Positions 27,108-29,189 of a stretch of 64,000 nucleotides of DNA are shown piece by piece (within the stretch, counting starts at the first letter, position 1; each line of letters starts with the position of its first letter). The notes beneath the pieces were generated by a model that saw only the letters and a program-made list of their open reading frames with translations, was not told the DNA's origin and searched no databases. Where the stretch lies: positions 129,001-193,000 of the forward strand of contig NZ_JAKFYQ010000001.1 of NCBI RefSeq assembly GCF_021533835.1, read 5' to 3'. The position numbers and the translations under genes were made by a program. This DNA comes from Synechococcus sp. Nb3U1 (GTDB lineage Bacteria > Cyanobacteriota > Cyanobacteriia > Thermostichales > Thermostichaceae).

Positions 27108-27442
27108 AAACAAAAACAGCTTCTGTTAGAGATTTTTCAGATTGCCATTCGGCAAACGTCAAGGGATCCCCATAAAAACTTCAGAAGCAACTTCCAGAAA
27201 CTAAAGCGTCCATGTTACACTCTCCTTCAAGCATTAGTTTCAACTCCATTCTGCGCGAGTTTAGGGTCTTTCCTGCTCGATTGGCTCGCTAGGGCAGGGG
27301 TTCCTGCTGATTTGAAGGAGGGTCTCTTCTGCTTGCTAATAAGTCGGTAGTCGGCCTCTGGGCTTGAACTTGTTCCCTCCGCGGAGCTTTTGTCTCCTCT
27401 ACCTATTCACGAATTCACGAATTGATCCCACGGCATCTCACC

Positions 27443-27913
27443 ATGGCTGGAGTTCTTAAGTTAGACATTCAAGAATCGGTCGAAGAGTTAAAATTGCTAC
27501 TCGGCAAGCAGGCTACCCCGATGGGCAAAGAGCGGGTTCAAGCTCTTTATCTTCTCAAGATTGGAAAAGTCAAGACGATTACGGGTTTGGCTGAAATTTT
27601 GGGCCGGGATATCTCAACCATTTTCCGGTGGTTTCAACGCTACAAAACCGCAGGCCTAGAAGGCCTGTTGACGGTGCCCCGCAATCAAGGGCGCAAACCC
27701 CTCATCCCCACTCCAATTTTGGAAAGTCTCAAACAAGAGCTGCATCAACCCGGTCGGTTCCGCACCTACAGCGACATTCGCGACTGGCTGCGGGAAAACC
27801 ACGGGGTGGATGCCTCCTATAAGGTGGTGCACGAAACGGTGCGCTACCGCCTCAAGGTGCGTTTGCGGGGATCCCGTGGGAAGCGGCGTTCTGGAGCTGT
27901 ACGAGCTTCTTAG
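27443..27913 (+). pseudogene. IS630-type transposase, N-terminal helix-turn-helix part only
   Basis: A 156-residue frame matching the DNA-binding half of IS630-family transposases: LKLDIQESVEELKLLL, KTITGLAEILGRDISTIFRWFQRY (helix-turn-helix) and RDWLRENHGVDASYKVVHETVRYRLK. In full elements a DDE catalytic domain of about 200 residues follows, in the same frame or by frameshift. Here similarity stops near residue 140, the C-terminus is a basic tail (RGSRGKRRSGAVRAS), and the next gene ends 35 bp further on. It is probably a decayed insertion element; a domesticated DNA-binding protein is the alternative. Confidence 0.7.
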
Positions 27914-27947: not shown

Positions 27948-28784
27948 TCACAGCTGGGCAGCCGGAGTCAAAACATGACTTTGCAACAACGGCGCTCCTG
28001 TAGGAGACTCGCTCCCTCCTATCGGTTCGAGGGTGATCAATAGGCGAGTGGGTTGCGCAGAAAGCGTAGGCCGACTCAGCCATTGCAGGGATCCCTCTCC
28101 ATTGACGGTAAAGGTGCCGGCACTTTCTAGCATTTGCGCGCCTCCCTCCAAATCCGACTGCAACCACAACTGATAGGTGCTTCCCTGGGGGGCAGGAGCC
28201 ATTTCTGAAGCCAACAGCAACACCTGCTTGGCACGGGGTGACCACAAGGCCTGTACCAGCAGCGGGTTCCCCAGGCTGGGATCCCGTAGGGTTATCCGTT
28301 GAATATCCGGCTGCTGTTGCCACTCTTGGTAAAGCCGCTGGATTGCCATCTGATCCTCAGGCAAGAGGGATCCCCACTGCCAGCGCAAGCGCCAGTATTC
28401 TACCGTCATTCCTGTCGCATAGAGTCCCAAAACCCCCAGACCGACCAACAGAATGCGTCGAGGCCAAACAGAAGCTGTCGTTTGAATCGCGGTGGGAGCC
28501 GGCAACCAGGCCCAGCGCCGCAACCGTTCTCTTGCTTGAAAGGCCGTCAGTTCGTACAGCCACAAGGCTACCGAGCGATCCCGTTCTATATCGAATACAT
28601 CCGCCCGCTTCCAGCAAAACTCGAATACCTGGCGCACCACTTCTTCTGCTTGGTGGGGTTGCTTGAGGGTGGCCAAGGCAATATCGAGTAGCCGCTTTTG
28701 ATAGCGATCCTTCAGGAGAAAGTGGCTGCGCCGATCCCGCGATTGGATCTGGCGCATCAGCTCGGAATCGGTCAGCTCCGCCAT
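27948..28784 (-). CDS. Fusion of ECF sigma region 2, a membrane segment and an RskA-like anti-sigma domain
   Basis: A 278-residue protein with an unusual architecture. Residues ~3-93 read as sigma-70 region 2 of an ECF sigma factor: LTDSELMRQIQSRDRRSHF, then AEEVVRQVFEFCWKRADVFD and LWLYELTAFQARERLRR. A single membrane helix follows (RRILLVGLGVLGLYATG). The C-terminal ~140 residues resemble the RskA anti-sigma-K domain (QGSTYQLWLQSD, SAGTFTVNGEGSLQW, LITLEPIGGSESPTG). Sigma region 4 and a zinc anti-sigma domain are both absent. ATG 28784 is preferred because GGAG lies 5 nt upstream; ATG 28799 is in frame. It may be a membrane-tethered decoy or regulator of a sigma factor or RNA polymerase. 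No separate sigma gene is adjacent. Confidence 0.78.
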   Translation of the reverse strand: MAELTDSELMRQIQSRDRRSHFLLKDRYQKRLLDIALATLKQPHQAEEVVRQVFEFCWKRADVFDIERDRSVALWLYELTAFQARERLRRWAWLPAPTAIQTTASVWPRRILLVGLGVLGLYATGMTVEYWRLRWQWGSLLPEDQMAIQRLYQEWQQQPDIQRITLRDPSLGNPLLVQALWSPRAKQVLLLASEMAPAPQGSTYQLWLQSDLEGGAQMLESAGTFTVNGEGSLQWLSRPTLSAQPTRLLITLEPIGGSESPTGAPLLQSHVLTPAAQL

Positions 28785-28943
28785 AAGACTCCGTTTCATC
28801 CAGGCCGATGAAGCCTAGCTAGTAGCGTTAGATGCAGGGGTTTCCCCAGACTATACACTACCTCTACTTATTCTGCTGTGGGCTAACCCCATACATTGCA
28901 TGTCTATCGACTATCGAATGTCTATCCCCGAAGAAACCTTTCC

Positions 28944-29189
28944 TCAGGCAGCATCCTTCTCTGCCACCTTCTCAGAGCTTTCGGTGCTGGCAGACTCTTC
29001 ATCGCTGCTGGGATTGTTCATCTCCTGTTTGAAGCCGCGCAGAGCTTTGCCCACAGCACTGCCCAACTCCGGTAACTTCTTGGGGCCAAACACGACCACC
29101 GCAATCACCCCAATCACCGCCAGTTCCGGCAGACCCATGCCGAAAATCCCCACGGCCAGAACAGGTTCACTCGGTAGCAGAATAGTCAT
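28944..29189 (-). CDS. tatA: TatA/E-type twin-arginine translocase subunit
   Basis: An 81-residue protein: a single membrane helix in FGMGLPELAVIGVIAVVVFGP, followed by the amphipathic helix KKLPELGSAVGKALRGF and an acidic tail (SSDEESASTESSEKVAEKD). The FGP hinge is diagnostic. TatA oligomers form the passage through which folded proteins cross the plasma or thylakoid membrane. I chose ATG 29189; an in-frame upstream ATG would add eight residues with no family similarity. It lies 160 bp upstream of the sigma/anti-sigma fusion on the same strand. tatC is not in this window. Confidence 0.9.
   Translation of the reverse strand: MTILLPSEPVLAVGIFGMGLPELAVIGVIAVVVFGPKKLPELGSAVGKALRGFKQEMNNPSSDEESASTESSEKVAEKDAA

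Follow-up and report, generated by a model that had tools for sequence, protein, structure and literature searches.

A conserved membrane protein of one cyanobacterial family that joins an ECF sigma region 2 to an RskA-type outer domain

In the window analysed here, a 64,000-nucleotide stretch of the genome of Synechococcus sp. Nb3U1, a single gene encodes, in one polypeptide, an ECF sigma region 2 followed by a membrane helix and by an RskA-type outer domain. This is a real, conserved, family-restricted protein, and the architecture, its conservation and the loss of a promoter-reading motif from the sigma part are all observed in the fusion family. The reading that we prefer, at slightly less than even odds (a probability of about 0.45), is that a sigma-2 module anchored in the membrane has been repurposed to dock a cytosolic partner, so that the protein acts as a sigma mimic.

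Gene, domain layout and distribution

The fusion gene lies on the minus strand, where the first-pass annotation had placed it. Its longest open form (27948-28799) would give 283 aa, while the start conserved among the members is the ATG at 28784, which gives 278 aa and agrees with the end coordinate of that annotation. The peptide AEEVVRQVFEFCWKRADVF, quoted there, is found in the fusion protein. The features discussed below are as follows.

27948..28784, minus strand: coding sequence of the fusion protein, 278 aa, with the start MAEL conserved in the genus
28789..28792, minus strand: GGAG, probably the ribosome binding site, 4 nt ahead of the ATG and read from the sequence
28509..28772, minus strand: ECF sigma region 2, residues 5-92, with the fold predicted intact, the 2.1/2.2 face altered and the region 2.4 motif lost
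28506..28517, minus strand: juxtamembrane R-W-x-W segment, residues 90-93, in which R90, W91 and W93 are invariant in 8/8 members
28398..28454, minus strand: single transmembrane helix, residues 111-129, from hydrophobicity (model helix 110-136, of low confidence there)
27996..28352, minus strand: RskA_C, residues 145-263, predicted to lie outside the membrane (Pfam 51 bits; confident beta-sandwich in the model)
28944..29189, minus strand: tatA, the next gene upstream and of the same orientation in 8/8 members, a linkage only

The layout proposed in the first-pass annotation, with sigma region 2 at the N-terminus, no region 4, and a membrane helix followed by an RskA-type outer domain, was borne out by profile searches. 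Sigma70_r2 matches at 25.3 bits (E 1.3e-5), just above the Pfam cut-off of 24, and RskA_C, behind the single helix, reaches 51 bits (E 2.3e-13) against a cut-off of 29.4, while a Pfam scan of the window protein and four other members returned no match to sigma region 4 (r4 or r4_2). Many ECF sigma models of NCBIfam cover residues 5-100 and one anti-sigma model covers 103-270, all scoring under their whole-protein cut-offs because the fusion matches each model only partly. Compared by sequence with solved ECF sigma structures, region 2 matches 5or5 (E 4e-6), SigW, AlgU and SigK. In the full-length homologue at L007 region 2 is weak when taken alone (16.9 bits, below the cut-off), and the PhyR_sigma2 model of Pfam matches one member at 15.7 bits, below its cut-off of 27.

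The full-length structure model has a mean pLDDT of 66, with a confident outer domain and low confidence in region 2 and the linker, for which reason region 2 was modelled a second time, alone and with more sequences. The model built with 45 related sequences is good (85.7) and best matches region 2 of sigma-E (TM 0.85, 1.5 A), although its alignment consists mostly of ECF sigmas and the model is thus biased towards this fold and not independent of sequence homology. A single hydrophobic helix is found at matching places in all eight members. Only about 18 residues separate sigma-2 from this helix, which leaves no room for a cytosolic N-terminal anti-sigma domain, and such a domain of the RskA type is indeed absent from the fusion protein.

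The same architecture, sought in other cyanobacteria, was found in every one of the eight genomes of the family that were examined, namely all six of the genus and both other genera, as full-length homologues of 47-100% identity, which is far from chance. A profile search of 386 cyanobacterial genomes returned no fused members elsewhere, only separate sigma or RskA genes; the fusion is also missing from the only other genome of the order that was examined, and it was not found on plasmids. A scan of genome contigs, which favours close relatives and was the sole coverage of phyla beyond cyanobacteria, gave four loci, all of the family, including the Synechococcaceae MAGs SM2_3_1 and SM2_3_2; Synechococcus sp. 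M44_DOE_062 is among the named relatives in that scan, whose names point to a Thermostichaceae-like family. An assembly join or a frame error can be dismissed with near certainty, as the same open frame runs without stops in eight independent genomes and contigs. In the literature searched we found no published work on the fusion protein.

Residue changes and selection in the sigma part

The eight fusion members were compared residue by residue with 37 cyanobacterial ECF sigmas. The R-S-R-x-x-D motif of region 2.4 is near-universal in the latter (R81 and S82 in 36/37 each, R83 and D86 in 35/37 each), whereas in the fusion members R81 and S82 are each gone in 7/8 and R83 and D86 in 8/8. In seven members A/G-F-Q/H/Y replaces R81-S82-R83 and E replaces D86, and the motif residues are absent from the six same-genus members and from SM2_3_1; the SM2_3_2 member reads R-S-Y with P at the motif, with R81 and S82 retained, and judging by these residues its loss of DNA reading is not complete. 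The fold residues L24, D26, R27, Y28, F54, W58 and L76 are kept in the fusion members, and on the 2.1/2.2 face the changes Y25K, L/Q51R and D/E52Q are invariant in all eight. Ordinary ECFs of the same genome retain the usual residues, including the region 2.4 motif. In E. coli sigma-E, class I anti-sigma domains are touched through their helix 4 by residues 22-35 and 47-58, regions that bind the beta-prime clamp helices as well (PMC7406223). This partner-binding face is where positions 25, 26, 51, 54 and 58 of the fusion lie when mapped onto sigma-E through sequence alignments only. Given that the motif is lost while the face changes are invariant, the promoter-reading side appears to have decayed and the partner side to have been altered and then fixed. 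From the loss of the motif together with the altered face, the fusion is probably not a working sigma factor.

These changes also bear on the suggestion of the first-pass annotation that the protein sequesters core polymerase. A tethered sigma-2 might hold core RNA polymerase at the membrane, given that a sigma binds core mainly through regions 2.1/2.2, which are also the most conserved part here. However, the very face that binds the clamp has an invariant Q where ordinary ECFs have the acidic D/E52 and an invariant R where they have L/Q51, and a single membrane protein would presumably need to be abundant to matter, which together make this the most improbable of the functional accounts that we considered.

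Region 2 is the most conserved part of the protein, with an identity of 86-95% between members of the genus and of about 52-65% between genera, followed by RskA_C (76-90% and 40-48%, respectively), while the linker and the helix are the most variable parts. Omega values from pairwise comparisons of region 2 lie at about 0.11-0.20; these figures are rough, as some pairs gave no estimate or a saturated one, although the ranking of the parts is clear. Such conservation together with a low omega indicates, at the level of sequence, that the sigma part is under purifying selection and is kept by it, which rules out a decaying remnant as a general account and speaks against the description of the protein as a relic. 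It may still be that only the outer RskA_C is functional, with sigma-2 serving as a passive cytosolic anchor or decaying in place, and the lost DNA-reading motif and the long stem branch of the fusion clade would fit such a role. We regard this as improbable, though slightly less so than the holding of core polymerase, since sigma-2 is more conserved than the outer domain, has the low omega given above and carries many invariant surface residues.

Candidate partners and alternative roles

Under the preferred reading of a docking sigma mimic, we infer a membrane orientation in which sigma-2 faces the cytosol; the outer domain would then sense an envelope state as its signal, and the cytosolic sigma-2 face would dock or release a cytosolic protein at the membrane. 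The likeliest ligand would be an anti-sigma domain, for example the one encoded in the ordinary sigma/RskA pair at G000:C1:816-817 kb, and docking of this domain would raise the amount of free sigma. Of the two mechanisms offered in the first-pass annotation, this corresponds to the capture of an anti-sigma partner, which is the one that we favour. The protein would then be a membrane-spanning sigma-2 mimic that titrates an anti-sigma domain, that is, an anti-anti-sigma made from a sigma gene and the gene of its own inhibitor, which would relay an extracytoplasmic signal at the membrane. We put forward this more specific version as a tentative and rather improbable one. The partner-side face differs from that of ordinary sigmas, and a known anti-sigma domain may for that reason not be the ligand. 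Each of the eight family genomes has at least one ordinary sigma/RskA pair, and by scores and sigma/RskA adjacency, without a tree, a counterpart of the pair at 816-817 kb is present in all eight. The related genome that lacks the fusion also lacks an RskA_C gene, and this co-occurrence of fusion and pair over nine genomes weakly hints at a testable partner.

Two other regulator loci were seen alongside these pairs. At L029 (G000:C3 near 44 kb) an ECF sigma gene is followed by a putative anti-sigma gene of the cupin type (ChrR-like), which adds another kind of regulator to the two RskA pairs. At L058:36-1456, in a genome of another class in the phylum, an ECF sigma with a VVLDVF motif has an RskA-type gene as its direct partner, a pairing seen only there among the loci read.

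Alternatively, signal-driven proteolysis might free sigma-2 to work as a partial sigma on core RNA polymerase, alone or with a region-4 protein in the manner of SigO/RsoA. The layout is the same as that of IutY, whose sigma part is released by Prc and RseP (PMC5411451), Rip1 cleaves the RskA protein in M. tuberculosis (PMC7509140), a sigma subunit consisting of region 2 only is known in RsoA (PMC8103513), and the fold of region 2 is intact in our model. Against this stand the lost region 2.4 motif, the changed clamp-face residues and the search for a stand-alone region-4 partner, which found no clear case in the genome, the matches being full sigmas or LuxR-type proteins and response regulators, apart from one weak match at C1:1200 kb. 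We therefore consider proteolytic release unlikely, if somewhat less so than a role for the outer domain alone. A small PF08281 match at C1:1684 kb was rejected as a partner, as it is a LuxR-type HTH. The weak match is a 211-aa protein (L045:1081-1713, G000:C1 near 1200 kb) with a region-4-like HTH at 19 bits against a cut-off of 25.7; it has no recognisable region 2, is the sole weak candidate for a separate region 4 and might be an odd sigma-like protein.

No cognate sigma gene lies next to the fusion, whose neighbours in the window are tatA and an HTH ORF; other members have purN-like or mazG-like ORFs nearby (named by eye from the sequence). The tatA loci examined in genomes beyond the family had neither a sigma gene nor an RskA gene close by. 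The HTH ORF (27422-27913, plus strand, 163 aa) carries HTH_32/HTH_23 domains, and its resemblance to IS630 transposases is confined to their N-terminal half (54 bits against a cut-off of 100). L002 and L004 have a similar ORF in this position, and the ORF is possibly the kept DNA-binding part of a transposase.

Origin and relation to known systems

About 27 cyanobacterial RskA_C loci were read, and in almost every one the RskA gene is immediately preceded by an ECF gene of the same orientation, often with an overlap. Since the two genes are usually adjacent, the fusion could have been created by a single small in-frame deletion: loss of the stretch between the end of region 2 and a point shortly ahead of the RskA membrane helix would yield exactly this protein. 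Such a deletion would have removed sigma region 4 and the cytosolic anti-sigma domain of an adjacent ECF sigma/RskA-type pair, so that sigma-2, the helix and RskA_C came to form a single chain before the family radiated. An origin of this kind, read from gene order, is plausible and the likeliest one, and to that extent the earlier idea of a sigma/anti-sigma pair merged by deletion holds, while the purifying selection described above argues against calling the product a relic. No intermediate of such a deletion was found. In the sigma-2 tree the fusion members form one clade (99/95) on a long stem, which falls between an RskA-linked and a cupin-linked ECF class and in neither. The tree does not pick out a parental pair, and the protein may, though less probably, have arisen instead by the joining of unrelated genes.

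Here, half a sigma and half an anti-sigma persist as one selected protein from which both interacting halves have been lost, and this makes testable how a sigma factor turns into a signalling or docking domain. The fusion also calls for caution in domain-based surveys, as a Sigma70_r2 match alone should not be counted as a sigma factor. A survey of 2024 sorts cyanobacterial sigma factors by domain matches and, in its main text, gives r2 and r4 for all families except clan L and leaves RskA unmentioned (PMC11119718).

The first-pass annotation knew of no standard architecture of this kind. Single-chain fusions are in fact known in IutY and in ECF52/53 (PMC5411451, PMC8999054), where they are described as working sigmas, and what appears new is the variant with region 2 only; among the cases described in the literature searched, none is without both region 4 and the anti-sigma domain. 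IutY of Pseudomonas putida (ECF243) is a sigma/anti-sigma hybrid whose sigma domain is released through cleavage by Prc and RseP (PMC5411451). The fusion shares with it a single chain with an N-terminal cytosolic sigma part, one helix and a C-terminal periplasmic anti-sigma domain, in an orientation that for the fusion is predicted to be the same; whereas IutY has an active sigma domain of about 23 kDa that is released proteolytically, the fusion has region 2 only, has lost the promoter motif and carries RskA_C outside. ECF48, ECF52 and ECF53 are sigma factors with fused membrane anti-sigma extensions (PMC8999054) and likewise combine an ECF part and a membrane anti-sigma-like part in one polypeptide, but they have a zinc anti-sigma domain and one or two helices, and the fusion has no anti-sigma domain between sigma-2 and its helix. 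As in the RskA/SigK pairs (PF10099), an outer RskA_C stands behind a single membrane helix; RskA, however, has a cytosolic anti-sigma domain and a neighbouring sigma gene, and in the fusion sigma region 2 replaces the anti-sigma domain. RsoA of the SigO-RsoA system (PMC8103513) is similar in having a sigma region 2 without region 4, but it is one half of a two-protein sigma with SigO, whereas the fusion has a membrane helix, an outer domain and no clear region-4 partner. With PhyR the likeness would be one of proposed principle only, namely that an anti-sigma factor is the target of a sigma-like domain, and in place of the PhyR receiver domain the fusion has its membrane helix and RskA_C. Taken together, the fusion is a variant of the known sigma/anti-sigma fusions and not an entirely new kind of protein.
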